Below are positions 24,277 to 43,665 of a stretch of DNA of 64,000 nucleotides, one piece after another (position 1 is the stretch's first letter; each line of letters starts with the position of its first letter). Source of the stretch: a virus; IMG/VR virus record IMGVR_UViG_3300007513_001761, positions 1-64,000 of that record. The stretch is one strand, 5' to 3'. The notes beneath the pieces are model-generated. The model was not told the DNA's origin. It saw nothing but the letters and a program-made list of their open reading frames with translations, and searched no databases. Position numbers and translations under genes: made by a program.

Positions 24277-26275
24277 ATTCTTCTACTCGGAACTTAAACG
24301 TTTCCCGTTGTTCGGTCCACGCTTGCAACGATGGATCATAAAAGGAAAACCGAAGTCCATACGCATACCCTGGCTCTAACAGATTCATATCCACGTCAAA
24401 GTAATTTCCGGAAATATCATAGGAGAGTCCAGTAGCAATATCCGACCCGGTGCCGTAAGGAATAGCCTCATAGCCATCTACCAATCTAAAAACACGATAG
24501 GAAGCGCTTTGAATTGTTGAGCTTTCTACGGTGGTATTGGCTGTTGTGTAAATCGTAGGTTTCCAATATTTATTTCTAATAAACAAATTAAAGCGCGCAT
24601 TTTCATCGTTTCGATATCGATCTTTTAGATTTGTAATATTCAGATAATACACGGGCTTTTGAATCACTTGGGATGCACTGAAATGTGTAGGGTTAAACGA
24701 AGAAGTGAAAAACTCCACACCGGCCCAAGGGTTGTTTTTTCCACTTCCATCGTGCCATACATCGAAAATTGTCGTAAGCGGAGAAGAAGCTCCAGTAATC
24801 GCAAACGAGGCACTGTAAATTCCAGTGGATACGTGCGCACCCGTCACAACATAGGGGTTGGTGCTATTTGGCACCCAGAGGCGCGGAAGTGTTGTTGGCA
24901 GCGAAATTGCTGCGCGCGTTGCAGCGCTTGAAGACGCGGCTTGTCCGCTTGGTTTGGTGTTATCGTCAGAGCCTGAATAAAAACTCACATAAATGGGGCC
25001 GGTTCCAATCGAAGGAATGTCTCTTAGGGCGCCTCTCACATAGTTGTAAAGGTAGAGGCTATTAATATTATCATTAACGGGGGCCAAAGAACTGCTGTAG
25101 TATGTATCTCCTCTATCATCTTTTACGGTGGAGTCCCACCGCGCTTCAATGGAGGGGCGCATAAAATAATATTGAGTTCCTCGTGCAAAAAACCTCTTCG
25201 TATAGTAAGAAATGGTAGAACCGGTAGGATCCTCTAGCCATCCATTATAAGTCCCATCAGCGCTGTTCGCGTAATATCCCTCATAAGTTCCTGTCAAGTG
25301 TACACCAACGCCATAATTTGCAATGGTTCCTGCAGACCATAACTCTACAAGACCGGTAATATCTATCTCTAGGTCTTCTAATCCAGTAGCAAAAGATTGA
25401 GTATACCATCTCCAAGGATATGCAGCATTCGCTTCAGTAATGTAGTCTCCTCCCACTTTTTCCCATGGAGTTCCGGCACTACCTGCCTGTTGTATTCCCA
25501 ACGAAATGCCGTCCAGTGTTCCCTCTACCGAAGTGCTTGTAACGCCGCCGGCTGTACTAGAGGTAACATATATAACGGCCGAGTCAGTGGGATCTATATT
25601 GGCTGAAAAGGCGCTTAAGCCGTCTACAACGCTATTAAATGCGGCCGCAATGCTGGCTTTGGCTGCAGTGGTTGAGCTTATATCAACCTCTGTCTCAGTG
25701 CCAGTCGCAGATGGTGCCGAATCTCCTGAGCCGTCATTGAACCATAAGTTATACCTATTGGTGCCATCATAAGTAATAATATAGTTTTCTCCAGATCCGG
25801 CGCCGTAATCAGCCAAAGTGTCCGAAGAGAAGGTAACTTTAGTTATTTCGGCTACATTCGTGCTGTTTCTTACCATCCAATTGGAGCCGGCGTTTCCGTG
25901 AGTCAAATCTTTATACGTTTCAAGATCTAAGCCTGTTCCTTCTTGCCAGTCGGCTGATATCGGCTCTACCACCAAGCTATAATCTTCTGGAACTGTTTTA
26001 GAATGAGGAGCGTTATAAAGCTTTAAATAGAAATTAACGCTGCCGCTATCAGGTATCACTCCGTTGGTTCTGTCTGTAGTGATGGAATCGATTGGAAATT
26101 TAATCAAAATTCGGGATAATTCTACAGAGCTTGATGCTTGGCGTCCATATATTGAAAATGTTTCAATAATGTCCGCATAACCCGCATTGGCTCCTGTTGC
26201 TCTCGTGGTGAGATTCGATTTAAAGGCATTAACAATTGTGTTGTCTGCATTAGCTATATATTTTTTAATTGCCAT
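24266..26275 (-). CDS. Virion structural protein after gp6 (669 aa)
   Basis: A 669-residue protein. Its N-terminal region (DNTIVNAFKSNLTTRATG, then SSVELSRILIKFPIDSI) resembles DNRLRE-type beta-sandwich modules, in which a strand reading RxLxxFdl follows an 'identifier' loop; this reading is tentative. A Thr/Ser/Ala-rich inserted segment follows (about residues 145-270), then more beta-type sequence with many Tyr residues. It starts where gp6 stops (TAATG overlap), so it is translationally coupled to baseplate assembly genes and is likely a baseplate or fibre-attachment protein. Confidence 0.6.
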   Translation of the reverse strand: MAIKKYIANADNTIVNAFKSNLTTRATGANAGYADIIETFSIYGRQASSSVELSRILIKFPIDSITTDRTNGVIPDSGSVNFYLKLYNAPHSKTVPEDYSLVVEPISADWQEGTGLDLETYKDLTHGNAGSNWMVRNSTNVAEITKVTFSSDTLADYGAGSGENYIITYDGTNRYNLWFNDGSGDSAPSATGTETEVDISSTTAAKASIAAAFNSVVDGLSAFSANIDPTDSAVIYVTSSTAGGVTSTSVEGTLDGISLGIQQAGSAGTPWEKVGGDYITEANAAYPWRWYTQSFATGLEDLEIDITGLVELWSAGTIANYGVGVHLTGTYEGYYANSADGTYNGWLEDPTGSTISYYTKRFFARGTQYYFMRPSIEARWDSTVKDDRGDTYYSSSLAPVNDNINSLYLYNYVRGALRDIPSIGTGPIYVSFYSGSDDNTKPSGQAASSSAATRAAISLPTTLPRLWVPNSTNPYVVTGAHVSTGIYSASFAITGASSPLTTIFDVWHDGSGKNNPWAGVEFFTSSFNPTHFSASQVIQKPVYYLNITNLKDRYRNDENARFNLFIRNKYWKPTIYTTANTTVESSTIQSASYRVFRLVDGYEAIPYGTGSDIATGLSYDISGNYFDVDMNLLEPGYAYGLRFSFYDPSLQAWTEQRETFKFRVEEYEY

Positions 26276-28071
26276 TATCTAACTTTTCCTTTAATATCGG
26301 TTTGGGGGAATTTTATTTCTATAATGGCATTTTGAGGAACAACCAAATAACTTCCATCGGGAGATAGATTGTCATTAATATTAAGCGTAGCATTAGAATA
26401 ATTGGTCCCCGTTTTATTATTTAATGTAACAGACGACACATCCAGAACTCCTGTCACTTTCTTGAGTTCGCTATAAATGTCACTAATATAGATGTGCTCT
26501 CCAATATAAAAGCTTGTTTTATATTTCTCTCTTAGTGCATTCACGCAGTCATCCAGAAGAGTAAACTTGTTAGTGTTGGTTGCAGGACTCACCACAAAAT
26601 CAATACCCAAATTAAGAATGTAAGGGTCCAAAATATCAATAGTATCGTTAATCATTCTATAGTGATTAAGCCAAGTTTTTAAATTATTTTTAATAGTGGT
26701 GTTGGTTGTCGTTAATTTACCAGTCTCATTTTCAGATACCACATACATGTTAAGATTTCTCCTTAGAGAATTAGGATCTTTTTGAACCGAAACCCGTTTA
26801 ATTGAACCGTATTGTGCTGGCATTCGGTAGGCCACATTTTCATAATCCGCCTGGGTAACTGCTCTATTTTGGGTGGGGAAGGTATCAAAAATTCGAAGCT
26901 TAAGCTCTGTCGAACTTGGCTCGGAGACATCTCCCACAATCGGCTCCTCGTTGTTAACCTCGATGGAAGACTGAACTTCGGTTATGGTGGCCGATGAAAG
27001 AACTTCTCTATCCGCAAATTCCAACAATGCACTCACTACTGTGTTTAAACCGTTGGTGGCAATATTGGAATTACCAGCATTCGTCATGCGATATGTAATT
27101 GTCAATGTAGTGTTTGATGGCACAATGCCAAAATTTTCATTTTTAGAAAGTCGTGTCGGATCAAAAGTTGTATCCGTTACATAATCTTTTCCAAAAAGTT
27201 CTAAAGCCACCGCTTGTGGGTTTGCAGCCACATTGGATTCTCCCGATTTTCCAGTTCCAAATTGAAGATAGGTGTTGTTGCGATCTCGGTCAACTACAAA
27301 TTTTCTTGATACCAGATAGGGTTTAAGAATAGAAGGAACATTATCATTTAAAAAGTTACTATTGGCTAGCTCTTTAAACACCATATCTTGAGACAAATAC
27401 CCTACCTCAAAATACTCATTTCCTTCTGTGTCTACAACACTAATAATTTCACTGATGGTTGCAGACGACATCTTAAGGCGCCGAAAGCGCTGATAGGCCC
27501 CTACTTTTAGTTTCTCTTGCCCAAAGCGACCAGATACTACATTTCCATAAGCTTTAATAGCAAAATGTGTAGGAGCGCCAGTAGAAGTATTTACTCTAGC
27601 TACAATAACTGGATTTTTTGGATCTGCAAAATCTACGTTTTCTGTCAATGCAAAACTCAAACCGGTTTCGGAAGTAAATCGGCTTCCTCGTTTTAAAACA
27701 GGTATATATCGCGTATCGGGACCAATACCGGTGGTGGATGCGGGTATTAATACGAAAAGCGACACTTTTCCATAAGTGGAGGCGCGTCCTGTATACTTAT
27801 ATCCTAAGATCCTCCCGTGGCGTAACACATTATTATATTGATAAGCGGTGTCTAGAAAAGTTTCATTAACGTTATAATCTAAGTAAAAAGACATTTGATC
27901 GCCCACATAGGCCACTGCATCCAACATTAACGCCCCGAAGGAAGCTTCACTAAAGTCCTGAAAAGTGTCAGGGTAAAATCTCTCTGCTACCTGGCGCAAT
28001 TCTTTGCGTATTCCTTCGTAATCAGTAGCCGTATAATCGATAGGAACTATCTTTTTTTGTTCATCAGACAT
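26275..28071 (-). CDS. 6: Baseplate wedge protein gp6 / baseplate J-like
   Basis: A 598-residue baseplate J/gp6-like protein, which in T4 forms the continuous ring of the baseplate by dimerising between wedges. Diagnostic segments are the N-terminal DYTATDYEGIRKELRQVAER, the SFGALMLDAVAYVGDQMSFYLDYN helix pair, NETFLDTAY, and later the FPTQNRAVTQADYENVAYRMP block typical of the family. The length is close to T4 gp6 (660). It follows the gp25-like gene by 17 bases, the same order seen in contractile-tail phages. It acts inside the assembling tail in the host cytoplasm. Confidence 0.9.
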   Translation of the reverse strand: MSDEQKKIVPIDYTATDYEGIRKELRQVAERFYPDTFQDFSEASFGALMLDAVAYVGDQMSFYLDYNVNETFLDTAYQYNNVLRHGRILGYKYTGRASTYGKVSLFVLIPASTTGIGPDTRYIPVLKRGSRFTSETGLSFALTENVDFADPKNPVIVARVNTSTGAPTHFAIKAYGNVVSGRFGQEKLKVGAYQRFRRLKMSSATISEIISVVDTEGNEYFEVGYLSQDMVFKELANSNFLNDNVPSILKPYLVSRKFVVDRDRNNTYLQFGTGKSGESNVAANPQAVALELFGKDYVTDTTFDPTRLSKNENFGIVPSNTTLTITYRMTNAGNSNIATNGLNTVVSALLEFADREVLSSATITEVQSSIEVNNEEPIVGDVSEPSSTELKLRIFDTFPTQNRAVTQADYENVAYRMPAQYGSIKRVSVQKDPNSLRRNLNMYVVSENETGKLTTTNTTIKNNLKTWLNHYRMINDTIDILDPYILNLGIDFVVSPATNTNKFTLLDDCVNALREKYKTSFYIGEHIYISDIYSELKKVTGVLDVSSVTLNNKTGTNYSNATLNINDNLSPDGSYLVVPQNAIIEIKFPQTDIKGKVR

Positions 28072-28088
28072 TAAAAAACTCCCTCTTT

Positions 28089-28457
28089 TTAAGTAGTAAT
28101 AACAATAGAATCACTCGCCCCCAAGGATGGAATAGAATAATATATAACCACCCCCAAGATGTTACCATCCCTATCACCACTATCAAATAAAATCTGGTCA
28201 ATCTTTACAACAGGTAAATATCTCCCCACCTGTCCTATAATATTAGTTCTTATGGCTGAGTTGGTTTGTTCCCCAAAACGCCTAAACAAATATTGCATCA
28301 TACCCACACCAAATTCTGGTACCATCACTCGTTCGCCGGGATTAGTTAGAAGAAGCATTCTTAAATTTTGTCTTATTTCACCCAAAATATCGCTTTCCAT
28401 GGTAAAGCCGGTACCCGAATCGTATTCCATGGGTATGCTAGGTCCCCAAAAAGACAT
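28089..28457 (-). CDS. 25: Baseplate wedge protein gp25 (gpW/gp25 family)
   Basis: A 122-residue gpW/gp25-like protein, a small baseplate wedge subunit shared by contractile phage tails, type VI secretion and tailocins. The family core is clear: EIRQNLRMLLLTNPGERVM, then PEFGVGMMQYLFRRFGE. The length matches T4 gp25 (132). In the assembled baseplate it links the tail tube and sheath to the wedge. It lies between the 2250-residue gene and gp6, and a TATTTATAG box 26 bases upstream suggests that a late transcript starts here. Confidence 0.92.
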   Translation of the reverse strand: MSFWGPSIPMEYDSGTGFTMESDILGEIRQNLRMLLLTNPGERVMVPEFGVGMMQYLFRRFGEQTNSAIRTNIIGQVGRYLPVVKIDQILFDSGDRDGNILGVVIYYSIPSLGASDSIVITT

Positions 28458-31400: not shown

Positions 31401-34400
31401 TCACCATCCCCTTCTAATTCGTACAAATCCGCAAAAAACACTTCTAAATCAAAACCATACGCATAAGTATCCGAATAATCATCTAGATTGCGAGCATTAT
31501 CATTAAACTCTAAGGTAACGTCGGGTGTCGCTTTGCGCGCCTTGGCCCAGACCTCAAGGGTGTTGTTGTCTTCTCCTTCAAAGTCAGGACGGAACTCAAT
31601 GTTGTAGCCAAATTCTGGCATTTTCAAAAGGTTGATTTTGTTTCGATTAAATGGCCCATATCCGGGCAAATCTTTAAAGTCTTTGGTCACCAGGCGCTCT
31701 TCCGGCTCTATCTCGTTGTTCATATCATAACTAAACGCCAGTAAGCTAAGAGTATCTTGTAAATAGCTTGCAACTTTAAGGGGATATGCGCCTCGTTGCC
31801 GATTGATATCTGGAGGTGACGAAAGAAACGCAGACAAACCTTCAGCGGATTCGAGGGGGGCGGCCTCCAGATCGCTGGCGTCCCAATCACTATAGAAGTC
31901 TACCCTTTTGTTTATATTGCTCGTGGCGCGGTGATGGCGCGTGAGAGGTTGTCCCATTGTATCTGAGAGGATCATGTTCACAAGTCCCCACTTCTTTTTA
32001 GTAGGACCATTGCCAATCATATCTTGAGAGTATGCGATTTTCAAAGTTTCAAGAGAGCCGCCCAGCGTGGCTGACACTGTGTCTGCTACTTCGTCCGGTT
32101 CGTAGGGTAAAATACCGTTGTCACAGCCAGGATCCGAGAGCATCGGTGGAGTATTGTTTTCCAAAAATGGTCCCAACCCTCCCTGAAAAATGTCTCCAAT
32201 GTCTCCTAAATCTTCCAAAGCTTGATCGGTATAGCTTTGACACATCTTTTCGCTCTGTGCTGGTGAAAGCCTTCCTTCTAGAAGTTGCATGCGCATGTTA
32301 CACATTTCTTCCTGTTGTTCCTCGGTTAAACAGAGAGAGGGACTTATTGCCTCTTCGGGAACTTGGTCAAGAGCTTTTTTCATCTCTTCTTTAAAGTCGG
32401 CGGGCATTACATTTCCCATGTTCCTAAAAGTAGCCGCAATCGTGCTAGGACCCTTTAGGCTCGGGCGAAATTGAGGGAACTCGTATTTTACAATATCATC
32501 TACAGCTTTTAAGAACTCTGGTGATGGGTTTCCAAGATAAGCTTCTTGAACTTCTCTAGCTGTCGAATTATTGGAGACCTCTTGTGTAAATCGTTGTACT
32601 TCTTCCGAGTCGGTAAAAGCAGCACCCCCGTTTCCAAAAGATTGAAATAATTCAGTGATTGTAGCATCAAGAGTTTCGTCATCAACATCATCGCCGCAAA
32701 TTGACTCTCTAATTGCATCAGCTACAGTGTTTTGATTGCTAAACGCTGCTGCAGTCATATCACCGACCAATTCTAATGCATTACAAATCGCTTCACTTAA
32801 AATTTCACACAATTTAATCATGAGTAATTCCCAAATTTTAGCGATTAGTTCTGCAATTGCTGCTTTGGCGGCCAACTTTATCCAATACCACAAACTTACA
32901 AACTTATCAAAGGGCGGAATAACAAACTGTGGCCACGCAATTTCATCCATATTCCGACAAATCGGTAAAGACAAACTTTTTATAAAATCAGCAGCGTTGG
33001 GATTAAAAAACGCGGTATTAGGACATGTAAGGGCAGCAAAAATATAACCAATAATTGGGGCGCCCGGAAAGTTGCCTAACATGTCCATTAATGATAATTC
33101 ATCTCCCAAATAAACTTCTAGCAACGCCTGAATATAAGCTTCCATAATGATATCGTTGCTTAGTTGTCCACTAACACTTCCAATGTCCACACTGGGTCCT
33201 AGGGTTCTGCGGTTTTCTTCTACATGAGAAGCCCAACCAGAATACGAAACAGAACCATATGGTCCTTCGGCGCGCGTTGCAAAGTCGCCTTTTTGAACAT
33301 CTGCAGTAGCGGCGGCCCATGGTCCTACTGGCTCTTCATCGCCATAATCGTAGTTTCCTACCACGGCATCGCTAGCCTGCTCGTTTGCTGAAGCAGATGA
33401 GAAAATATCCCCTTCTGAAAGCTTTTCATTCATCTTGTCCGACAACTCTTGTTGTTTATCAGCGGGAAGTCCAACAAACAAATCTCCAAAGTTTTCAATA
33501 GACATTGCTCGCAGTGCGCTTTCAAGCATTTTTCCTAACGCTTGCTCTAAGGTAAGACCTCCAAACAAACATTCGAGCGCTTTAACCATAAGGTCTAAAA
33601 GTCCACACAGTTTTAGGCGATTGAATTTTTCGCGACCACTCTTCCGCTCGTCGCGGTTGCCTTTTCTCTGTTCATTCCAACTTATTGCGGCGTACTTAAC
33701 ACTATTTTCCCCCCCTCTCTCGTAATTGAAAACCCAATTGCAAAAGTCAGCAAACATGTCAGCATCTTGTTGAATCTCTTCTAAGGCTTGTTCTTTGGCC
33801 AAAGTTTTAATTTTAGCTTTGTCTACTTTCCAGATAGATTCACCTGTGGCAACAGTTTTGGGCTCATTCCAGGTTGTAGAATCCTCAGCCGCTGCTGCTA
33901 GAAGCTCGTCAGAAGTCATTTCTCTTTGAACCTGGCTTTCGCTAAGGAGTATTTCCAGTTCTTCTTTTAGTTTTTCCATGTCTTCTGTTGTGTAATTGCA
34001 TGTAAAATCATGGAACATATAAGCTATAGCATCTCCGAGACTAAAAGCTTCATCTAAAATATCCTGACCTAATTCTTTTCCTTCTTCTAAAAGTGCTTCA
34101 GCTATACAACTGCGGCCCGTATGTTCACCCGACGCATCATATTCAGAGTTGGCTGTGTCGTAAATTTCAGGATATGTATATGTTTTAAGAAAATCTAACC
34201 AATCTGTGGGTTCTCGCGCTGTTAATTCCTCTACCATGTCGCGTGCCTGAACAAAATAAGCTACGGCTGTGGAATCAGACCACGCTGAAGTTGATACCAA
34301 TAATTCATCCAGGGCAGTGATTATAATTGGCTCTTCTACACATCCTTCAGCTTCAATTTCAAGTTCTTTTAAAACATACTCGCTAGTAAATGTAAAAGTA

Positions 34401-35239
34401 ATGCTACTAACGGCCCTGTTCCACGTAAAGGTATCAGAAAAAGGGCCCCCGGTGCCCACTATGTTATAGTTGCGCTTGTTAAGAAAAGCATCCAATTCCG
34501 GCAAAAGCTTTCCAACTTCAGAATTTTTACTACTCCAACCATAATCACCATATAAATCTAACGAAAACACAGAGTTATCGCTTAAAAATTTCAAATTACC
34601 TTGCCCTGTGCCACGGTAAACATTTAGATAGCGCGTATAAAGGAAGAGAGATTTGCGCACTTTCATTAACAATTCAAACATCTCTGACGACGCATACCAC
34701 ACTTCTATGTCGCCATCTTCATTTTCGGCGCCTTCTTCTTCAGAATCAGCCGCGTCTATAGCTTCTAAATTTTCATAAGGCACAGAATAAAGTAATTTTA
34801 ATCTGCTCATGGAACGCAATCCGACATAATAGTCAGTATGCTCTACCACTTCTTTCAAAATATCTATAGATGCCTGAGAGGTGTCTTTATTATAAGCCAG
34901 CAATAAGGCGGCAAGAGCGGCTTCCTCATATGTTCTCTGCAAATTTGCTACTTCCAAATCAGCTTGCGTATTTACTTCTTCTTCAGATAAGGACTCTATA
35001 TCTTCCATAAGCCCTAAGACGCTATTTTCCGCTGTTTCATAGGTAATTTGATACATACACCTTCTTTCATTTAAAAAAGGAGTATATTCGTCTAAAGTGC
35101 GCCAATTAGGAAGAATGGCAGCGCTATTGGGAATACACGGCGGGCACTCATCGGGAGCAACGGTTTCTATCGGCTCACAAACATCATTGAGTCCATCGCC
35201 GTTCGCATCTTGAAATGGTAAAAATTTGGATTCAGACAT
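28487..35239 (-). CDS. Very large virion protein (2250 aa)
   Basis: A 2250-residue, very acidic protein. Residues 8-20 (QDANGDGLNDVCE) form a D-x-N-x-D-G-x-x-D calcium-loop pattern like thrombospondin type 3 or dockerin loops, followed by Cys-Pro-rich sequence. The first 450 residues and several later parts are helical and rich in Glu/Leu, suggesting coiled coil. Around residues 770-830 a strongly hydrophobic helical stretch (IKLAAKAAIAELIAKIWELL) could be buried or membrane-active. No enzyme motif is recognised. Position between the spike-like gene and gp25 points to the baseplate hub or tail; a tape measure is less likely because long beta-type regions are present. Confidence 0.6.
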   Translation of the reverse strand: MSESKFLPFQDANGDGLNDVCEPIETVAPDECPPCIPNSAAILPNWRTLDEYTPFLNERRCMYQITYETAENSVLGLMEDIESLSEEEVNTQADLEVANLQRTYEEAALAALLLAYNKDTSQASIDILKEVVEHTDYYVGLRSMSRLKLLYSVPYENLEAIDAADSEEEGAENEDGDIEVWYASSEMFELLMKVRKSLFLYTRYLNVYRGTGQGNLKFLSDNSVFSLDLYGDYGWSSKNSEVGKLLPELDAFLNKRNYNIVGTGGPFSDTFTWNRAVSSITFTFTSEYVLKELEIEAEGCVEEPIIITALDELLVSTSAWSDSTAVAYFVQARDMVEELTAREPTDWLDFLKTYTYPEIYDTANSEYDASGEHTGRSCIAEALLEEGKELGQDILDEAFSLGDAIAYMFHDFTCNYTTEDMEKLKEELEILLSESQVQREMTSDELLAAAAEDSTTWNEPKTVATGESIWKVDKAKIKTLAKEQALEEIQQDADMFADFCNWVFNYERGGENSVKYAAISWNEQRKGNRDERKSGREKFNRLKLCGLLDLMVKALECLFGGLTLEQALGKMLESALRAMSIENFGDLFVGLPADKQQELSDKMNEKLSEGDIFSSASANEQASDAVVGNYDYGDEEPVGPWAAATADVQKGDFATRAEGPYGSVSYSGWASHVEENRRTLGPSVDIGSVSGQLSNDIIMEAYIQALLEVYLGDELSLMDMLGNFPGAPIIGYIFAALTCPNTAFFNPNAADFIKSLSLPICRNMDEIAWPQFVIPPFDKFVSLWYWIKLAAKAAIAELIAKIWELLMIKLCEILSEAICNALELVGDMTAAAFSNQNTVADAIRESICGDDVDDETLDATITELFQSFGNGGAAFTDSEEVQRFTQEVSNNSTAREVQEAYLGNPSPEFLKAVDDIVKYEFPQFRPSLKGPSTIAATFRNMGNVMPADFKEEMKKALDQVPEEAISPSLCLTEEQQEEMCNMRMQLLEGRLSPAQSEKMCQSYTDQALEDLGDIGDIFQGGLGPFLENNTPPMLSDPGCDNGILPYEPDEVADTVSATLGGSLETLKIAYSQDMIGNGPTKKKWGLVNMILSDTMGQPLTRHHRATSNINKRVDFYSDWDASDLEAAPLESAEGLSAFLSSPPDINRQRGAYPLKVASYLQDTLSLLAFSYDMNNEIEPEERLVTKDFKDLPGYGPFNRNKINLLKMPEFGYNIEFRPDFEGEDNNTLEVWAKARKATPDVTLEFNDNARNLDDYSDTYAYGFDLEVFFADLYELEGDGDDPDESSGLYASVGVVVEDEDGTVSTRPADATRVKISERSNENFDPGAGFLNMLDPKRKKDIDDGTLATAEPGDESIIRALEYEFLAIDTTFDGISDETLEQYADFMSMFEGHYKTNVNATAPQYVLLKELLEGNGETIYTSTIMSACEEIYGEISSAMATLIADVDNTEGAWYYGAQFDSLSFSDAKYVIADDTDAGSERGDLYGDAQVLGDDLEPRDIRNSDMILGISKMQQEIEDGTYTIEGATNRVFYLDPSIYGGNYMNPAVYVAPLQNKGWLGFVDVLFPDLSPCKPKYTDLIDFGDIQEMIDEIYPTMPEDTRLSQDPECVLEVPYDRILNRSSKALLQGLISAAIRIYCSVGLIKAMPVFTKFSPRFPEVFSAIYGSYIVEVMERSFKAPQEADRELFTAFKDNEFWYAFLEQAVQMYGERIEREEIEPPFHVTAALTRLNNMQEEYLYPTRDILRQAKRDDEVTFFKSLKNYRSDENLEAVQETEEDAKIVLTELVMEQLNFMSEKIIENLDIIGWTPDIYDLDYYLLDNMTQGSSLTLNANMNPDGTVNESYIDIPTEPIDPAVATDYNDVGDLAYYTYGGEFVIGEDNDGDGNEGQEYIGYYHIHLNDDNEPVYMVGEAHSDTTAHDTLYPLTDKIYVEIGDVSTLDLGESEVEADPARPFYIEKYISINGEKLADDTAISEIMDNSDLNALLSEVYPGVDNPMEVVYDDNGTAIGITGELGVRYGLRFSIILDGTKYEITSVEMDALDLPLNDFVGINENSKRLLCLVNLLKNDDKFKLTTRYIIPVRKMASMLAMYVDKAFLMSIGEKTVADDESWARAGKSSFDPTTKPGMTAEVTSDEDGVITGIEVSGDSEGNWVSSTDRDVWSPFFMQWDEWDQIVLRSSKTRLKRLFKTYYNDRDFDVAEITGKNNGPGQVYLRNLREAIKLPSGERILTWKQKRRLISNPFSASGALCENQD

Positions 35240-35270: not shown

Positions 35271-36311
35271 TTATGTTATGTTAACATTTCGACTGCATAT
35301 ATAGCGACTCGCGTTAGGATCAGTGTAATGTTGTCGCCAAGCCAATATCTGCCCTTGTTGAGACCATGCTGGGCCCGAGCCCTGGATGTTACATGCTGCG
35401 AGCGCGCTGGCTAAAGCGGCGGTTTGTCCGCCGGCGACCATGACCGGGTTTGTTCCCACAACCCCAATTATTGCCTGTTGAACAAGATTCATTGTAAGAG
35501 CCACTCCAGCTATAGAATCGACAATCGCTGCCAACTCTTTCAACGCCTGAAGAAGGTTTTCTCCCATAACTGCTGGCTGTAAGTAATTTAAGTGAGGATC
35601 ATGATCTGGAAAGAAAATCTTTCCAATCTCCAATATGGCTTTTGGAATTAAAAGTTCGCGACCAGCGGCATTGTTGCCGGCGATCAAATCAATAGTGGCT
35701 GCCTGTTCTATGCTGCCTCCTTTAGAGTTTGTTTCGCCCAAAAGACCCAGACCTTTGGCACCTTGTGTGCGTCCAGTTACAATTTTTACGCCTTCGTTTC
35801 CGAAGATGCGCACCTTATCAGCTTTCATGCCCACGGCCGATGAGGGTTCTTCCGGATCTCCCGTTTTACGTGCAATTCCAAAATTCGTGTCTATTGTGGT
35901 AAGAGTACTAATATAAATGCGAGCCGCGTCGGCTACAAAATTACGATTAACAATCATTCCATCACAGGGTCCCTTAGAACCACGAGATTTGGCCGCCAGA
36001 CCGACGACTAAATCGATAGTATCGCCAACGCCAAGGGCGCCGAGTCCCGAAGCTTCGGTAGAAGGGCGATCTAATCCGAAGATTAAATGCGCATTATTAT
36101 GAGACATCACCTTTTCGCCCTGGGCCGCATTGAATGTGATGAAGGGTTGAATAGGTGGGGTATTCATCAACCCACCTGTTGCTGTGTTAACAGGTGTACC
36201 TTGATCCATCAAGTCTTGAGGTGTTGCTGGTACCTCAGACTCCCCAGTCCCTTCCGGACATCTCTCAAATGTGTCTTTGTTGAAAAGTTTTCGCTTGCCT
36301 TTTGATGCCAT
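35271..36311 (-). CDS. Spike-like baseplate protein (346 aa)
   Basis: A 346-residue glycine- and alanine-rich protein. Its middle (KADKVRIFGNEGVKIVTGRT, then IDLIAGNN) has the short alternating strands seen in the beta-helical parts of phage central spike proteins. The C-terminal region contains a hydrophobic helix (NLLQALKELAAIVDSIAGVA) and ends in a Tyr-x-Cys-x-Arg-rich tail. The call as a puncturing-spike relative is inference from strand pattern and from position just after three cell-wall enzyme genes and before gp25/gp6. A TATTTATAG box 24 bases upstream of the ATG marks a likely late transcript start. Confidence 0.5.
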   Translation of the reverse strand: MASKGKRKLFNKDTFERCPEGTGESEVPATPQDLMDQGTPVNTATGGLMNTPPIQPFITFNAAQGEKVMSHNNAHLIFGLDRPSTEASGLGALGVGDTIDLVVGLAAKSRGSKGPCDGMIVNRNFVADAARIYISTLTTIDTNFGIARKTGDPEEPSSAVGMKADKVRIFGNEGVKIVTGRTQGAKGLGLLGETNSKGGSIEQAATIDLIAGNNAAGRELLIPKAILEIGKIFFPDHDPHLNYLQPAVMGENLLQALKELAAIVDSIAGVALTMNLVQQAIIGVVGTNPVMVAGGQTAALASALAACNIQGSGPAWSQQGQILAWRQHYTDPNASRYICSRNVNIT

Positions 36312-36362: not shown

Positions 36363-37688
36363 TTATTCATAGTTTTTACACACATTAGTGGACGGATCTG
36401 ACCATTTTTTACACACAGCGCATGCAGCGTGAGATTTACAAAAATCCTCAACTGACCAAAATGAATCTAAATACCTTCCAAAGCTTATTTGCCCTTGAGA
36501 ACACAAATAGCCGGGGCCTTTTACCCATGAATTAAGGGCAGTCGTATAGTTCCAAACGTCTTCTTTAGAAGTACTAGATAGCCCTTCTATTTCGCTAGAA
36601 TAAGTTCCGCCTTTTCCATGAAGTATCCAGCCCGCTACCGCTAATCCTGTTCTGTCGGCGCCGTGTTTACAGTGTACTAAAACGTTCCCTTTTGCAAATT
36701 CTTTATTAAACGCACTAACCGACTCCTGGAAGCCTTGCCCCTTGATACATCCTTGATGGGCTGACATTTTCTTATATTCAATTTTTTTGCCGGCTGTTTT
36801 TTTATCTAAATATTCGATGTAAGCCTCTTCTATTTCCATCGTGATGCAGGTTGCCATCTGCGGATCCCATCCATATTCGCTATCCAAATCGTCGCGATTA
36901 AGACGAATAAATGTTGTAATATTATCTGTTTCAACCATGTATTTTATTTCACCCAATGTGGGCTGCTTATATCTATAGTTGTTGTTTCCTATCGCTAGAT
37001 AATTACCACTTGGTTTTTTTGCAGTGACAGAATCAAAATTCAAAACACCAGGCGGCACTGTAGCTGGACATTTGCCACCATCGGGGCGCTGTCCTGGGGC
37101 GGCCGTGTCTTGTACGGGATCATAACTCTTCAAGCGGGCAATCGTATTGATCAAGAATTTACCGCTCAGCGGCTCACACTGGGGCTCTTTTGGATCTCTT
37201 AAGTTGGCGCGCTCAATGAGCCGAGTTACAATGCCATGTTGAGAGTTTACTGTGTTTGTTTCTCCGTTCATATTTAAGGTTATTTCTACTATGTCGTTTT
37301 GTCGTATAGGAGAATCAGTAGAGGTTTGGTAGTCGGCAGACGTTACACACAAAGTATGCAATTTAATCAATTTAACGGCTTCCGCAATATTGCTAGTGGA
37401 ATCAAGATTACAGGGGTTTGGCAAATAATGATGCGGGCTTTTCTCGTAAAGATCATCCTTTATTCTCACTCTTATAACATAGCGTCCTATTTGAGCATCT
37501 CCAGTATTTCGGCCAGTTCCTGTATATCTATCTAAGTCGCGTTGAGAGAGAGGGAGGGCATCCGTAAGCGCTACACCTTTGAACACCTTAATTTCTCCTC
37601 GTTTTGCATTAAGCTGATTTTGAGATGCCCACATCAACAATTCTAAACGCATACGAGGCGTTGTAAATGTAGTTTTATCCATTAACAT
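36363..37688 (-). CDS. Tail protein: shared N-domain plus Cys phosphatase
   Basis: A 441-residue protein with two parts. Residues about 30-195 match the N-terminal domain of the next two upstream genes (GEIKVFKGVALTDALPLS, IGRYVIRVRI, a conserved Asn-Pro-Cys, CVTSADYQTST, then a 'C-x2-L-x-G-x-F' end). The C-terminal half carries HCKHGADRTG (339-348), the Cys-x5-Arg loop of tyrosine/dual-specificity phosphatases with catalytic Cys340 and Arg346. A cysteine-rich tail follows. By analogy with its two sisters it should be carried on the virion and act on the cell envelope, perhaps removing phosphate from a surface glycan; this is inference. It starts at ATG 37688, or at 37682 in a TAATG overlap with the preceding stop. 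Confidence 0.75.
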   Translation of the reverse strand: MLMDKTTFTTPRMRLELLMWASQNQLNAKRGEIKVFKGVALTDALPLSQRDLDRYTGTGRNTGDAQIGRYVIRVRIKDDLYEKSPHHYLPNPCNLDSTSNIAEAVKLIKLHTLCVTSADYQTSTDSPIRQNDIVEITLNMNGETNTVNSQHGIVTRLIERANLRDPKEPQCEPLSGKFLINTIARLKSYDPVQDTAAPGQRPDGGKCPATVPPGVLNFDSVTAKKPSGNYLAIGNNNYRYKQPTLGEIKYMVETDNITTFIRLNRDDLDSEYGWDPQMATCITMEIEEAYIEYLDKKTAGKKIEYKKMSAHQGCIKGQGFQESVSAFNKEFAKGNVLVHCKHGADRTGLAVAGWILHGKGGTYSSEIEGLSSTSKEDVWNYTTALNSWVKGPGYLCSQGQISFGRYLDSFWSVEDFCKSHAACAVCKKWSDPSTNVCKNYE

Positions 37689-38917
37689 GGCGGATCCAAT
37701 TTGCTATGTCCAAGCGACATGCTTATATAATCAGCGCGGGTGTCAATCGAGAAATCACCACCTGAGTTTTGATCGATGAATGTTTGTCTATCGCGCCCGG
37801 ACTTGAGCGATGCCCAATCATCAGCCAAAGAAAAACTGTCTGGCTTACCAATTGCCCGTGGCCAAAATACATACATATATGCATCCCCTTGATTGGCAAT
37901 GGCGCGGCCTTTCGGTTTATCAAAGTATTGCTCTACAAGCTCTAGTTGTTGATCCCAATTCATCGCATATACCTTAGTCTGTGCAGCTAATCTGTCAGCA
38001 TCCGAAAAGGGTCGAGAATATCCTTGCAGTCCTGCTGATGTGTCTGGCATAAACTGTATTAAACCAACAGCACATTTAGTCAAACGTGTAGAATGATCAG
38101 AATAGCGGCCTTCACAGCCGATATTTATCTCTTGAGGATCAAAGCCACTCTCGCCATTGATAATGTTAGCCAGCCAACCTGGATCAAAGTTAGCACTAAT
38201 ATTATTGGCAACTTTTACAATTCCGTCTGCCTGGTGTTGGCTCAGCCCATATGCTTTCATCAAATCTGCGGCTGTACGGTGGGAGGCTTTTCCGGAAAGA
38301 GAGCATTTAGTAGTTACAGGTCCGGACGAGTGATCGGCTAGCAACGTTAGTTCTGAAGTGTCGAACTTGCCTTGCAAGCTCTCACAGAGGTTTTGTAAAA
38401 AAGGATCGTACTTTGCTTTGGAAACAATTTGAATTATTTCTCCATGATCTGTATGAATATTACCTCGTGAATCGACGGTCATAGTGACTCTTACTTTGTC
38501 ACCTCTGCGCACTATAGAATCACTACTTATGCTAAAGTCTTCAGACGTTACATATGTTGTAAACATTTTTATCATCTTAATAGTCGCGACTAGATCTGGA
38601 GTTTCTCCAATCCCACAAGGATCTATTAAAAAGCGATGAGGGTTTTCTATAGGCTTCAACATATCTCCATTAGCGTTCCCAACGATCATGGCTTTAATGA
38701 TATAACGTCCAATGGTAGCTGCGTCTATTGCGCCTATTGGTCCATTTTTGGTATAATTGCGCTGCTGCTCTCGGCTTAATGGAACAGCGTCTGTTAGTGC
38801 TATAGCAGTAAATTCACGAATTTCGCCACGTCCACGTCGATTAAATCGTATTTCAAATTTATCCGCAATCGATAGGCGCAGTGCTTCTTCGGGAGTGGTG
38901 GGGTAGTCAACAGACAT
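37682..38917 (-). CDS. Tail lysin: shared N-domain plus lytic transglycosylase
   Basis: A 411-residue protein. Residues about 30-195 are the domain shared by three tandem genes (GEIREFTAIALTDAVPLS, IENPHRFLIDPC, GETPDLVATIKMIKMF, VTSEDFSISSDS, CESLQGKF). The C-terminal 190 residues are a soluble lytic transglycosylase domain with the catalytic Glu256 in NGESGFDP and the AVGLIQFMPDT motif. It would cut peptidoglycan between MurNAc and GlcNAc, locally opening the wall during DNA injection. Two cysteine-bearing inserts (NIGCEGRYSDH; LTKC) are unusual for the family. It is directly adjacent to the M23 gene (TAAATG), so it is made with it. Confidence 0.88.
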   Translation of the reverse strand: MSVDYPTTPEEALRLSIADKFEIRFNRRGRGEIREFTAIALTDAVPLSREQQRNYTKNGPIGAIDAATIGRYIIKAMIVGNANGDMLKPIENPHRFLIDPCGIGETPDLVATIKMIKMFTTYVTSEDFSISSDSIVRRGDKVRVTMTVDSRGNIHTDHGEIIQIVSKAKYDPFLQNLCESLQGKFDTSELTLLADHSSGPVTTKCSLSGKASHRTAADLMKAYGLSQHQADGIVKVANNISANFDPGWLANIINGESGFDPQEINIGCEGRYSDHSTRLTKCAVGLIQFMPDTSAGLQGYSRPFSDADRLAAQTKVYAMNWDQQLELVEQYFDKPKGRAIANQGDAYMYVFWPRAIGKPDSFSLADDWASLKSGRDRQTFIDQNSGGDFSIDTRADYISMSLGHSKLDPPC

Positions 38918-40075
38918 TTAGCCTTCCACCATGGGGCCTTCGGCTGCATCAGTCCCTGCTGGGCTCGTGGGATCTGTAGAAGCAACAGCGGGTGCAGTCG
39001 GATCATCACATTTTTGAATTGCCTTAATAAAGGGAGTTGCGTCCATGGGACTAGAACCTTTCCAAAGCTCCATATGTAAATGAGGGCCGGTACCCACGCC
39101 GGTATTTCCAACCTTTCCAATAAGATCTCCGCGACTCACGAGGTCTCCCGCCTTAATATGTGTGGGCTTCTGTGCCATGTGAAAATATTTCGTTTTATAG
39201 CCACTCCCGAGTCCTGTGTGTTTAATGTTAACGGAATTGCCTTGGCGCGTCTTGCCATCCCATGCATAAACTTTATCAATTACTCCATCAGCGGCTGCAT
39301 ATATTGGCGTGCCCGTCGAAGCTCCCCAGTCGGTGCCCTGGTGTTCTTCGCCGCCTCTAGGTCCATAGGGGCTCGTAATGGGATATGAATCATTCATTAA
39401 TGGATGCATCAAATAGAACTCAGAGTATTCTTCTGCACACACTTCTGCGTCTATCGTTATAGACGGAATAGATGTCTCTAACAACTCAATCGTATTAACA
39501 GTGAATTGTCCCTGTAAGCTTTCACATGAATCAAATTGCGGACGTGCAGGATCTGCGGCTTCTACCACTCCTAGAATTTCTCCTTGCTCCATGATCAAAG
39601 CTCCATCGCCACCTACCTGTAAAGTCACTTTAATGATATCATTCCTGTTTATGTTCATCCCGGAACTTATATCGTAGTCTGTGCTGGTGATGAATGTCGG
39701 AAACATTTTAGCTAATGCGATTGAAGTGGCTATATCTGGCGTTTTTCCCAGGCTACAAGGATCGACCAAATAACTGTGTGGGTTTTCAATAAACGGCAAT
39801 CGGTTACCAATCGCATCTCCAACGATAATGGCCTTTACCGCAGAGCGGGCTATTTTGGAATCATCCGGAGAGCTTGTCGTCGAAACAGAGGCTAGCCCAT
39901 ATCGTTCCAACATTTTCTTGCGCGAAAGTGGCACACCGTCGGTAATTGCACGGGCAGTGAACTCTCGAATTTCGCCTGGGAACCCAACGGTTGCTTTGTT
40001 TTGTTTTTGCGCGGCGTAGAGTCCTATCTTGGCCCTAGCCATTGTAAAATCACTATAATCAAGTGGCATCCACAT
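38918..40075 (-). CDS. Tail lysin: shared N-domain plus M23 peptidase
   Basis: A 385-residue protein. The N-terminal 195 residues are the three-gene shared domain (GEIREFTARAITDGVPLS, IENPHSYLVDPC, GKTPDIATSIALAKMF, ITSTDYDISS, CESLQGQF). The C-terminal half is an M23 (LytM/lysostaphin-type) zinc endopeptidase: HQGTD (His245, Asp249), His299 in YFHM, and HLH (332-334). It would cut peptide crosslinks in peptidoglycan at the site of infection. A Pro/Ala/Ser/Thr-rich tail ends the protein. The first ATG overlaps the preceding gene by 17 bases; ATG at 40069 has better spacing (9 bases) from GGAG. Confidence 0.9.
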   Translation of the reverse strand: MWMPLDYSDFTMARAKIGLYAAQKQNKATVGFPGEIREFTARAITDGVPLSRKKMLERYGLASVSTTSSPDDSKIARSAVKAIIVGDAIGNRLPFIENPHSYLVDPCSLGKTPDIATSIALAKMFPTFITSTDYDISSGMNINRNDIIKVTLQVGGDGALIMEQGEILGVVEAADPARPQFDSCESLQGQFTVNTIELLETSIPSITIDAEVCAEEYSEFYLMHPLMNDSYPITSPYGPRGGEEHQGTDWGASTGTPIYAAADGVIDKVYAWDGKTRQGNSVNIKHTGLGSGYKTKYFHMAQKPTHIKAGDLVSRGDLIGKVGNTGVGTGPHLHMELWKGSSPMDATPFIKAIQKCDDPTAPAVASTDPTSPAGTDAAEGPMVEG

Positions 40076-40364
40076 TATCTCCTTGAATTAAATCAAAGAG
40101 AGAGTTTTTGTCATCTTCGGTAAGCTCTACCTCTCGCCCAGAAGCTTTGTGTTTAAGACCGATAAGCTTTACTAGCTGTTCATTGGAACGTTGCATTGTT
40201 TCAATGTGTTTGGCGGCTACAGGGCTCAGATATTTGTTTTGTTCTGCATCTTTGGCAATGGCGTTAGCAATCTCATTTAAAAACTCTCGGGCCACTTTGC
40301 GGTCATTACGAATGTTGCCAAGCGCCTCTTCCATAAGTTTTTTTAAATCTTCTTGTTTGCTCAT
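40059..40364 (-). CDS. Small helical phage protein (101 aa)
   Basis: A 101-residue, almost entirely helical, charged protein (KKLMEEALGNIRNDRKVAREFL, then YLSPVAAKHIETMQRSNEQLVKL) with an acidic C-terminus. It is not recognised with confidence; the helical make-up and size would fit a small assembly or DNA-binding adaptor, including a small terminase-like protein, but no diagnostic motif is present. It overlaps the sigma factor gene by ATGA and the M23 gene by 17 bases, so it is translated with both. Confidence 0.6.
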   Translation of the reverse strand: MSKQEDLKKLMEEALGNIRNDRKVAREFLNEIANAIAKDAEQNKYLSPVAAKHIETMQRSNEQLVKLIGLKHKASGREVELTEDDKNSLFDLIQGDNVDAT

Positions 40365-41062
40365 AATACGCCACTCTCCCAGTCTTGCTTGAACAGGTAA
40401 TACTTTTTTCTAAATTTCTTTAGAGAATTAACAATCTGTTTGGTGTTAAGTCCAGTAATCTCTCTCAAGTATAGGTAAATAGCTTTTTTGTTAAAAATTT
40501 CTATATCCTCTTTCGACTCAAATAAGATAATAATGGCTTTATAAACTTTAAGATCATTTTCCTTCATTTGGGAAGTGTCCCAAGAACTAAGTTCTGTGTG
40601 GAATGAGAGCCAGAATTCTTCGTCTTCTCTCTCGGTCACATAAGATTCATTCGTCGATAGATACTCTTCTTCGTAAGCTTTTGAGACATTTTCATAATCA
40701 ACCTCGCGCATGCTGCGTTTTTGCTGCTGCTTGACTTTATGAATGAACCAATTCTTAGTAATAACAGAAAAATAGGAAAAGGCTTTGGAGCCTTTAGTGG
40801 GGTCGTATTTATCTAAAATGGTCATAAGCCATATCTTACATTCGTCGCGCAAATAGTCGCAATTAGGAAGATTCGTAAATTTATAAGTAAAAACTATTTT
40901 ATCCACCATTTCGTTAAAAGCAGGCTGGATGAGGTTTACATATAACTCAGTTCTTTCTTTTATGCAGTCTGTGTTGCTATATCGGATAATGGCATTTTCA
41001 TGGACAACGGTAAAATAGTGATTACTCTTTTTGGCCGCTCTCTTCTTCTTCGTTTTCTTCAT
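40361..41062 (-). CDS. 55: Late sigma factor, gp55-like
   Basis: A protein of about 233 residues resembling T4 gp55, the sigma factor that directs host RNA polymerase to phage late promoters. The core DYLRDECKIWLMTILDKYDP, KGSKAFSYFSVITKNWF, HKVKQQQKR is the sigma region 2-like segment. The C-terminal part (YLYLREITGLNTKQIVNSLKKFRKKY) has a helix-turn-helix character. A Lys-rich N-terminus precedes the domain. It is longer than T4 gp55 (185). ATG at 41062 is the first ATG and gives a 41-base overlap with the preceding gene. Its targets may be the TATTTATAG boxes in this window (inference). Confidence 0.82.
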   Translation of the reverse strand: MKKTKKKRAAKKSNHYFTVVHENAIIRYSNTDCIKERTELYVNLIQPAFNEMVDKIVFTYKFTNLPNCDYLRDECKIWLMTILDKYDPTKGSKAFSYFSVITKNWFIHKVKQQQKRSMREVDYENVSKAYEEEYLSTNESYVTEREDEEFWLSFHTELSSWDTSQMKENDLKVYKAIIILFESKEDIEIFNKKAIYLYLREITGLNTKQIVNSLKKFRKKYYLFKQDWESGVL

Positions 41063-41393
41063 CAATGAGTTCAGGTTCCTTGCTATCGTCTGTAATTTCG
41101 GGCGCTTCTGGTTCTGTCAACGAGTAAATATACTCGAAAGTTTCTAGTTGTTCGTTAAAAGACACAGCATGGTGTAGAAGATGTTCTAAGGTTTGATCTC
41201 CATAGAATGCATCCAAATCATATACAGACTTAACATGTTTTGCGAATGCATCTATCATATGTTGTAAATCTCCTAGTTCTTCTGACACCGAGAGAAGTTG
41301 CACGATGGCCGAGCGAGCATAAATAAAAATACCCACATTAAGAAACAGCGATAACGTTAGCACTGCAGATAGTATTATTTCAAGTCGGCTCAT
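41022..41393 (-). CDS. Single-pass membrane protein, acidic tail (123 aa)
   Basis: A 123-residue protein with one N-terminal transmembrane segment (residues about 5-27, IILSAVLTLSLFLNVGIFIYA), a helical middle and a very acidic C-terminus (PEITDDSKEPELIDEENEEEE). The function is not recognised. SD GAGG lies 6 bases before the ATG. It sits between the zinc-ribbon gene and the gp55-like gene, and overlaps both. Confidence 0.65.
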   Translation of the reverse strand: MSRLEIILSAVLTLSLFLNVGIFIYARSAIVQLLSVSEELGDLQHMIDAFAKHVKSVYDLDAFYGDQTLEHLLHHAVSFNEQLETFEYIYSLTEPEAPEITDDSKEPELIDEENEEEESGQKE

Positions 41394-41881: not shown

Positions 41882-42259
41882 TTAATCTCCTTTTTCGATT
41901 CTGTAGCTGTCGCTATCAAAGTGTTGTGTTGAGAACTCAAAAAGTTCTGTGTCTTGCAGAGCAATCATTCTGTGGCGTAATCCGCGATATACATGAAAGT
42001 TGTCGCCGGCCTCTAAAACAATCTCCTCTGCGTCTTCTAATTTATCTCCATCTGAGTATTTTACCAGAAGTCTTCCAGATTGAACATAAAAAACCTCGTC
42101 CTTCAATTTGTGAAAGTGCCATGAGCACTGCTTGTCCTTCTCAAAGAACAACAGCTTTCCGCAATATTCCTCACAATTTACTATCCATCTTTCCCAGCCC
42201 CAGCCTTTATCAACGTGGGTCATCGGCAAAGAAGTCGTCTGCTTTAATTCCTTTGTCAT
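41882..42259 (-). CDS. Cupin sugar-isomerase-like protein
   Basis: A 125-residue single-domain cupin. The metal-binding residues are visible: H48-x-H50 and Glu55 in SWHFHKLKDEVFYV, and His96 in GLRHRM, the pattern of the C-terminal domain of type II mannose-6-phosphate isomerases and related sugar-binding cupins. It would bind a divalent metal and a sugar or sugar phosphate. It is the last gene of the glycan island and overlaps the HAD gene. ATG at 42259 has GGAG 12 bases upstream; Met13 (42223) would shorten the overlap but has no ribosome site. Confidence 0.75.
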   Translation of the reverse strand: MTKELKQTTSLPMTHVDKGWGWERWIVNCEEYCGKLLFFEKDKQCSWHFHKLKDEVFYVQSGRLLVKYSDGDKLEDAEEIVLEAGDNFHVYRGLRHRMIALQDTELFEFSTQHFDSDSYRIEKGD

Positions 42260-42539
42260 CTATGTAAAAATCTCCTGAAGGTTTTCCTAATATCAATTTG
42301 TGGTACTTTGCTTCCCACTTTTTTAATTGTCTTTCTGTTAAATCGTGAAAATCATTGTGGGCTCTGAATCGGTTTCCGTGGTGTCTTCCCATTCCTCGCG
42401 CAGTAAAGTATACTATATTATGCCCTTCTTTATACAAAGTGTTAATTTTTTTAATTCGTTCCTCGAAAGGTTTTGCTTTTCTATAGTCTCCGTCTGTTAA
42501 TGTACAGATGGTGCCGTCGATATCAAACACATATGTCAT
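42210..42539 (-). CDS. Small HAD phosphatase, sugar-phosphate type
   Basis: A 109-residue HAD-superfamily hydrolase with the nucleophile motif DIDGT (Asp6, Asp8), a Thr at 46 (YFTARG) as motif II, Lys86 region and the acidic motif DD at 94-95. It belongs with the short HAD proteins found next to sugar nucleotidyltransferases in capsule clusters. It is much shorter than GmhB (about 190), so a heptose-bisphosphatase role is possible but not assured. It is joined to the nucleotidyltransferase gene by an ATGA overlap. Confidence 0.78.
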   Translation of the reverse strand: MTYVFDIDGTICTLTDGDYRKAKPFEERIKKINTLYKEGHNIVYFTARGMGRHHGNRFRAHNDFHDLTERQLKKWEAKYHKLILGKPSGDFYIDDKGIKADDFFADDPR

Positions 42540-42928
42540 TTCATGTTTCCTAAAATTCGAGTTGTGGAGTAATCCCCAATTCTCTTAAAAAATTTTAATT
42601 CGAGTACATATTCTTGGCCAACCACATCTTTTCCTTCCCAATCAGATCCGATGACCATAACATCTGGCGCCAGGGATCTTATCTCTTCTTCTAATTCTCG
42701 CCTGGTATTGAATACTACCACTTCGTCAATGTATTTTATACACTCTAAAGCAAATTTCCTGTCACTCACGTTATTAAAAGGTCGTTCTTCTCCCTTGTCT
42801 TTTCTAACTTTTTCGTCAGAATCAATACCGACTACTAGTTCATCTCCCAATGATTTCGCATACTTAAACATTTCAAAGTGACCACGATGCAAGATGTCAA
42901 AACATCCATTTACCCACACAAGCTTCAT
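42536..42928 (-). CDS. Heptose nucleotidyltransferase, RfaE2/HldC-like
   Basis: A 130-residue nucleotidyltransferase of the RfaE domain II / glycerol-3-phosphate cytidylyltransferase family. The HxGH signature is His14-Arg-Gly-His17 in GCFDILHRGH, and the C-terminal STTRI motif is present. It would join a sugar 1-phosphate to a nucleotide, most likely heptose 1-phosphate to ADP, GDP or CDP. The start at 42928 is taken because it overlaps the kinase stop as ATGA; a longer frame exists but lacks a ribosome site. Together with the kinase and HAD gene it makes a split version of bacterial HldE. Confidence 0.85.
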   Translation of the reverse strand: MKLVWVNGCFDILHRGHFEMFKYAKSLGDELVVGIDSDEKVRKDKGEERPFNNVSDRKFALECIKYIDEVVVFNTRRELEEEIRSLAPDVMVIGSDWEGKDVVGQEYVLELKFFKRIGDYSTTRILGNMK

Positions 42929-43665
42929 ACGACACTCACGCCTTTCTTTTGTACAACTTGAGTAGCGCAAGTATTCGCAAACTCAATGGCGCTGGCAATG
43001 TCTTTACTTTCTGCATAGCGCGCAACAAGAGCACTAATAAAAGTGTCGCCGGCGCCGGACGTATCTTTTATTTCTACTTTCGGTACTGGGTAATATTCGT
43101 TCAAATAACGAGCGCCTTTAGGCCCGAGAGTGATGATCATCTTTTTAATTAGTTCGTCATCTAACATGTGCTTAGTTCTATTATATTCGAACTCGTTAAT
43201 CTTGATAAATTTAATCTCACGACACCAATCCCCTAGGATCTTTTTGGTGTCTAAAAAAGTATACGGGTTCTGTTGGGCAATATAAGCTATGTCCGTTTCC
43301 GAGAGAAAACCTTTATTATAATCGGAGATAACAATCACATCATAAGGCGAAAAATCAATTTGTTCAAGCTCACAGCGCACGATGTTATCATCATTCTCAT
43401 CGCAACGCAAAATGATGTAGTTGGTTCTATCATCTACAAATCTAACTTTTCGCACAGATTCCCAATTAGCATTTGTGGCAATATCCACGCTTGCTTCGAC
43501 CAATGATTGAATATTACGATAAACATTCATCGCCATACCAGGATTGGTGTTGACGCTGTCTCTGTCTAACTTAATCACCGGCACAGGAGCTTCCGGGCAT
43601 AAACGACTACATTCACCATATTGGTAAACGTCTACACAACTTTCGCCAATCACCAGAATACGCAT
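42925..43665 (-). CDS. PfkB-family sugar kinase, RfaE1/HldA-like
   Basis: A 246-residue ribokinase/PfkB-family kinase. It has the N-terminal ILVIGESCVDVYQYGECSRLCPEAPVPV segment typical of the heptose-7-phosphate kinase domain of HldE and the ATP-site DTSGAGDTF (201-209) with catalytic Asp207. It is about 70 residues shorter than bacterial RfaE1, mainly in the lid and middle region, and still holds both ends of the fold. It probably makes a heptose 1,7-bisphosphate. TAATG coupling links it to the aminotransferase-family gene. Confidence 0.8.
   Translation of the reverse strand: MRILVIGESCVDVYQYGECSRLCPEAPVPVIKLDRDSVNTNPGMAMNVYRNIQSLVEASVDIATNANWESVRKVRFVDDRTNYIILRCDENDDNIVRCELEQIDFSPYDVIVISDYNKGFLSETDIAYIAQQNPYTFLDTKKILGDWCREIKFIKINEFEYNRTKHMLDDELIKKMIITLGPKGARYLNEYYPVPKVEIKDTSGAGDTFISALVARYAESKDIASAIEFANTCATQVVQKKGVSVV

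Follow-up and report, generated by a model that had tools for sequence, protein, structure and literature searches.

A predicted PTP/DSP-fold domain in one of three paralogous putative baseplate-hub enzymes of an uncultured phage

We analyzed a 64-kb window (the whole stretch of DNA considered here), which is part of the 113-kb record of an uncultured phage, and found that the C-terminal domain of one predicted baseplate-hub protein is, as judged from profile matches and a structural model, a complete domain of the protein tyrosine phosphatase/dual-specificity phosphatase (PTP/DSP) fold. On balance, we favor the view that this domain is a virion-borne, extracytoplasmic, accessory envelope phosphatase carried by one of three paralogous hub enzymes. 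Computed support extends to the domain, its fold, the conservation of its P-loop, the paralogy, the syntenic position, and a repeated linkage to wall enzymes. The main interest of the locus is that, in uncultured phages, a PTP-fold domain is paired with lytic enzymes again and again; we did not find this described in the open-access literature searched, which gave no relevant paper on phosphatase domains of endolysins or tail proteins.

RESULTS

Three consecutive paralogs in a baseplate module

Three consecutive minus-strand genes of the window (Table 1) have an N-terminal domain of ~190 residues in common, and this domain of the phosphatase-fold protein matches those of the two upstream genes with E values of 8e-27 and 2e-26. 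Past the N-domain the three paralogs diverge into a Peptidase_M23 domain (Pfam, E value of 2e-25), an SLT-type transglycosylase domain (residues 243 to 296; Pfam SLT at 5e-4, under the curated cut-off), and the PTP/DSP-type domain; the transglycosylase paralog also matches a PHROG baseplate hub family (E value of 4e-14). A preliminary description of this DNA had proposed a phosphatase fused to a tail-type N-domain. That fusion is borne out, with an N-domain probably of the baseplate-hub type, but the range given for the gene (36363 to 37350) covers only residues 114 to 441 and has to be extended to 37688.

TABLE 1 Features of the hub-enzyme locus in the 64-kb window
Feature	Position	Strand	Basis
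Hub-enzyme gene with phosphatase-fold C-domain, 441-aa product	36363..37688	-	
N-terminal domain, residues 1-190, predicted OB fold	37119..37688	-	Paralogy and model
PTP/DSP-fold domain, about residues 217-429	36402..37040	-	Profile, predicted structure
P-loop HCKHGADRTG (339-348): nucleophile Cys340, Asp345, Arg346	36645..36674	-	
General-acid loop position, residues 308-320 MSAHQGCIKGQGF	36729..36767	-	No Asp/Glu
Paralogous hub gene, SLT-type transglycosylase domain	37682..38917	-	Pfam SLT and PHROG baseplate hub
Paralogous hub gene, M23 peptidase domain	38918..40075	-	Pfam Peptidase_M23
Presumed spike, conserved, 3' of hub genes	35271..36311	-	Name inferred; position kept in 78 cassettes
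Two conserved marker genes preceding hub genes	40059..41065	-	Conserved in relatives' cassettes
Baseplate wedge genes, gp25-like and gp6-like	26275..28457	-	PHROG matches

Since gp25-like and gp6-like wedge genes lie nearby, we assigned the hub gene cluster to the baseplate module. The order 3' of the hubs is the presumed spike (no Pfam or PHROG family match), a gene for 2,250 aa, and then the wedge genes. The 2,250-aa gene (28487 to 35239) keeps its place beside the presumed spike in relatives, and an NCBIfam scan of it gave no match; a 3,232-aa open reading frame (14578 to 24276) follows downstream of the wedge genes. Elsewhere in the window, a sugar-nucleotide/glycosyl cluster (41882 to 53981) encodes a cupin, a PfkB kinase, a DegT aminotransferase, a dTDP-4-dehydrorhamnose epimerase, an NAD-dependent epimerase, a methyltransferase, and a glycosyltransferase, and is sizeable for a phage record of ~113 kb.

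The predicted structure of the N-domain (pLDDT of 77.5) has an OB-type fold, with OB-fold matches of Z up to 7.6. Structural matches include baseplate proteins of phages P1 (Z of 6.7) and Mu and of cyanophage A-1(L), but also unrelated OB proteins; the match to T4 gp5 is weak (Z of 6.3, 100 residues aligned), and a search of the N-domain against PHROGs gave no clear match. The predicted OB-type fold and the gene position probably suit a gp5-like hub, short of proving one.

A complete PTP/DSP-fold domain

The preliminary description rested on a complete Cys-x5-Arg loop, HCKHGADRTG, which we find at residues 339 to 348 of the 441-aa product, as it stated. A bare Cx5R motif in 64 kb is at chance level and is no evidence by itself: HCx5R[ST] occurs once in the window, against ~1.5 occurrences expected from shuffled six-frame translations, and 0.08 are expected when a following G is included. 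Matches of the whole product to Pfam DSPc (9e-5) and Y_phosphatase3 (2e-4) both fall under the curated cut-offs. A profile built from 39 phage relatives, with every hub protein left out, picks this product alone within the window (E value of 7.4e-33). An AlphaFold model of residues 205 to 441, based on a 34-sequence alignment, reached a pLDDT of 91.8 and a pTM of 0.90, and the Cx5R P-loop sits between strand 132-136 and helix 141-153 of that model. Together, the profile match and the predicted fold rule out a chance motif as the explanation of HCKHGADRTG.

The comparison with PTP families that had been proposed places the model in the DSP fold. Alignment to solved atypical DSPs with VIA-align gave Z scores up to 12.2 (RMSD of 2.9, 137 residues aligned), with AtPFA-DSP1 and SIW14 at 12.2 each, PTPMT1 at 11.8, and TpbA at 10.8; Foldseek E values were modest (best, 3e-4), so the fold class is clear and the nearest subfamily is not. 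The top structural scores thus go to the inositol pyrophosphate phosphatases SIW14 and AtPFA-DSP1 and the phosphatidylglycerophosphate phosphatase PTPMT1, yet their identity to the domain is only 11 to 16%, and they are cellular enzymes, unlike the phage domain. Their P-loops also differ from it in composition. The best sequence match in the PDB, by profile search, is TpbA (8e-7), a DSP of Pseudomonas aeruginosa (PDB codes 4r0s and 2m3v) that resembles the window domain in its DSP fold and in the HC-K-H-G start of its P-loop. TpbA, however, is a stand-alone bacterial regulator with Asp105 in its general-acid loop, whereas the window domain is part of a putative hub protein and has no equivalent of this Asp.

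An active site with an aspartate inside the P-loop

Cys340 and Arg346 are both in place in the P-loop. The preliminary description had set the lack of a general-acid Asp against a catalytic role; in the usual DSP general-acid loop, residues 308 to 320, there is indeed neither Asp nor Glu, and an Asp there is not conserved in the family, but the sixth P-loop position is occupied by Asp345, an invariant residue of the family. His311, 29 residues before Cys340, is common to many relatives, though not all. Because our first family retrieval used a degenerate P-loop pattern and so selected for the P-loop itself, we rechecked its conservation with an independent C-terminal motif, W-x-Y-T-T-[QK]-[YF]-N-x-W. 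New members found in this way carry HCAHGSDRTG and HCLWGADRTG; the Cys, Gly, Asp, Arg, Thr, and Gly of the P-loop are retained, and neighboring positions vary. Conservation beyond the P-loop includes Arg239, Asn264, and Glu287 and the C-terminal Trp379, Tyr381, Asn386, and Trp388.

The MptpB/ALP lipid phosphatases (signature HCXXGKDR) and the myotubularins (HCSDGWDR) likewise have an Asp as the sixth P-loop residue; this residue is indispensable to MptpB and serves as the general acid of myotubularins, and the ALPs have no WPD-type Asp (PMC3091653). By analogy, catalysis in the window domain would rely on Cys340 and Arg346, likely with Asp345 as the general acid. The likeness to these enzymes is limited to the P-loop, with no overall sequence kinship shown, and we rejected membership in the MptpB (ALP) family since HCKHGADR has Ala for the signature Lys at position 5.

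Recurrent linkage of the domain to wall hydrolases

When the window domain was used as a single query, neither viral contigs nor phage records yielded anything useful. Only the degenerate P-loop pattern brought out relatives: it matched 66 uncultured viral contigs, most of which represent one family. Five queries against 50,697 annotated phage records did not recover this family (marginal matches only, E values of 0.007 or weaker), and a scan of ~85,000 bacterial and archaeal genomes returned only distant matches and no close family member; most of the distant bacterial matches have signal-like N termini, as judged by eye.

Several phage members join the domain to wall-active modules. One protein combines M23 (1.5e-23), PG_binding_1 (8e-14), and the DSP domain (locus L022), and PG_binding_1 plus DSP recurs in L004, L007, L025, and L045, the last two of which match endolysin PHROGs. 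Weak matches indicate a muramidase-like domain plus DSP in L028 and L031. In two large phage proteins (L010:9598-11343 and L062:140-1630), a more divergent DSP-PTPase domain comes after a weak PG_binding_1 match; this seems to be an independent instance of the pairing. Free-standing members (L040, L044, L050, and L188) have a hydrophobic segment at the N terminus; Phage_lysozyme genes (9e-24 and 3e-22) adjoin the L040 member and lie one small gene from the L044 member, and a weak Glyco_hydro_108 match adjoins that of L050. A sizeable part of the family is without a recognized wall-domain link (e.g., L009, L012, L026, L036, and L042). A GDS-type (SGNH-like) domain that we had noted by eye in L009, L012, L026, L004, and L031 was unconfirmed by the profile libraries scanned, and we do not count it as evidence. 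As read from these architectures, the recurrent linkage to peptidoglycan hydrolases, on which the preliminary description could not draw, is the strongest clue for an envelope context.

The phosphatase-fold hub occurs in multi-enzyme cassettes

Eighty cassette loci were retrieved as relatives of the marker gene at 40361 to 41065, and depending on the locus, one, two, or three hub-enzyme genes separate the markers from the presumed spike. Among single-gene cassettes (n = 57), Pfam families were VanY (17), Amidase_2 (7), M23 (6), DUF2272 (3), and tail lysozyme (1); wherever Pfam recognizes a family, the enzyme is a wall hydrolase, counting DUF2272, which we take to be NlpC/P60-like. None of these 57 has the DSP hub, whereas 6 of the 13 cassettes with more than one hub gene do (P = 1.3e-5, unclustered). 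Once similar cassettes are grouped, the DSP hub occurs in 5 of 12 clusters with several enzymes and in 0 of 51 with one (Fisher P = 1.1e-4, a guide only, as the clusters are akin by descent). Because the marker gene and not the DSP domain was the query for these loci, this comparison was not built in. That the DSP hub is never the sole enzyme suggests that it helps a wall hydrolase and is no substitute for one.

The DSP hub is accompanied, among others, by a tail lysozyme (1.4e-7, L027) and by a protein with a weak match to glucosaminidase (L037). Counted from the markers, the DSP gene comes third in the window and first in the other complete-cassette loci. We examined the Flavobacterium immuto phages and Microcystis phage Mel-JY01 as cultured relatives, and no DSP is annotated at their hub position. 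Seven loci (L114, L130, L131, L133, L140, L098, and L090) have two or three paralogous hub-enzyme genes with no phosphatase domain; such cassettes are a wider case of multi-enzyme and possibly mixed-subunit hubs. In L038 (8795 to 10600), a hub paralog has a 400-residue C-terminal part with only a weak FlgN match, possibly another non-hydrolase cargo.

DISCUSSION

The arrangement recalls T4 gp5, which combines a hub with a tail lysozyme: a hub lies beside a presumed spike, and a predicted OB-type N-domain is joined to a wall-active enzyme. In T4 gp5, however, the triple beta-helix spike is part of the same chain, whereas the window chain ends past the DSP domain and the presumed spike is a separate gene. 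Also unlike T4 gp5, the cassettes with a DSP hub have two or three paralogous chains of differing enzymes, one of them phosphatase-fold.

An accessory envelope phosphatase has to be weighed against three other readings. The domain may be a pseudophosphatase, that is, a phosphate- or phosphoglycan-binding module that anchors a hub or lysin to the envelope as cell-wall-binding domains do in endolysins. It stands in place of binding domains such as PG_binding_1, or alongside them, and its usual general-acid loop lacks an Asp. A pure binder would, however, be expected to lose the Cys in some lineages, and all members whose P-loop was read, including those retrieved by the C-terminal motif, retain its Cys, Asp, and Arg; several members, moreover, already have PG_binding_1. 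We regard a binding module as unlikely. Equally improbable, in our judgment, is an injected effector that would reach the host cytoplasm together with the tail contents and there remove phosphate from host proteins, nucleotides, or lipids, in the manner proposed for the DSP domains of polymorphic toxins. In favor of an effector, the domain weakly matches Tc-R-P and other DSP models of toxin systems, and cargo domains can be part of hub proteins. Against this, the fusions to endolysin-type M23 plus PG_binding_1 proteins, the membrane-anchored members beside lysozyme genes, and the signal-like N termini among distant bacterial relatives point outside the cytoplasm.

A periplasmic location would also fit a protein-tyrosine phosphatase that switches a host envelope regulator (of capsule or exopolysaccharide) during entry, as TpbA, the best PDB sequence match, is itself periplasmic (PMC4409338). 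Yet Asp105 of TpbA is not conserved in the window domain, and slow signaling suits neither entry nor endolysin fusions, which makes such a switch the least probable of these readings.

Under the favored reading of an accessory envelope phosphatase, we infer that the protein is part of the virion, is catalytically active, acts outside the cytoplasm in the phage of the window, and plays a helper role. The three hub enzymes would travel close to the spike and arrive at the envelope upon tail contraction, where the peptidase would sever wall cross-bridges and the transglycosylase glycan strands, both opening peptidoglycan. The phosphatase domain would take phosphate off an envelope component, aiding the wall hydrolases or passage of the tube; Cys340 would attack the phosphate, Arg346 would bind it, and Asp345 (or His311) would protonate the leaving group. 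We favor a phosphate on an envelope glycan, glycolipid, or lipid as the substrate, possibilities being lipid A or core, a wall-linked sugar phosphate, a lipid carrier, or a phospholipid head group. The preliminary description had likewise named envelope substrates, and the context does point to the host envelope; lipopolysaccharide or lipid A is then one of several possibilities, and for teichoic-type polymers we found no support.

To our knowledge, known phage wall-attack enzymes act on sugars, peptides, or amide bonds. It is conceivable, and we suggest it tentatively, that phage-specific PTP-fold envelope phosphatases join peptidases and glycosidases as a third class of lytic helper and serve at both entry and exit. 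At entry they would act in tail hubs of two or three differing enzymes, perhaps mixed trimers, and at exit as endolysins and membrane-anchored forms within lysis cassettes. If a phosphatase is repeatedly used with such wall-attack enzymes, a phosphorylated envelope component would be a barrier worth removing at entry and lysis. This would be a testable new lysin activity and might help lysin design against Gram-negative bacteria. Hubs of two or three different enzyme paralogs also raise the question of mixed hub trimers.
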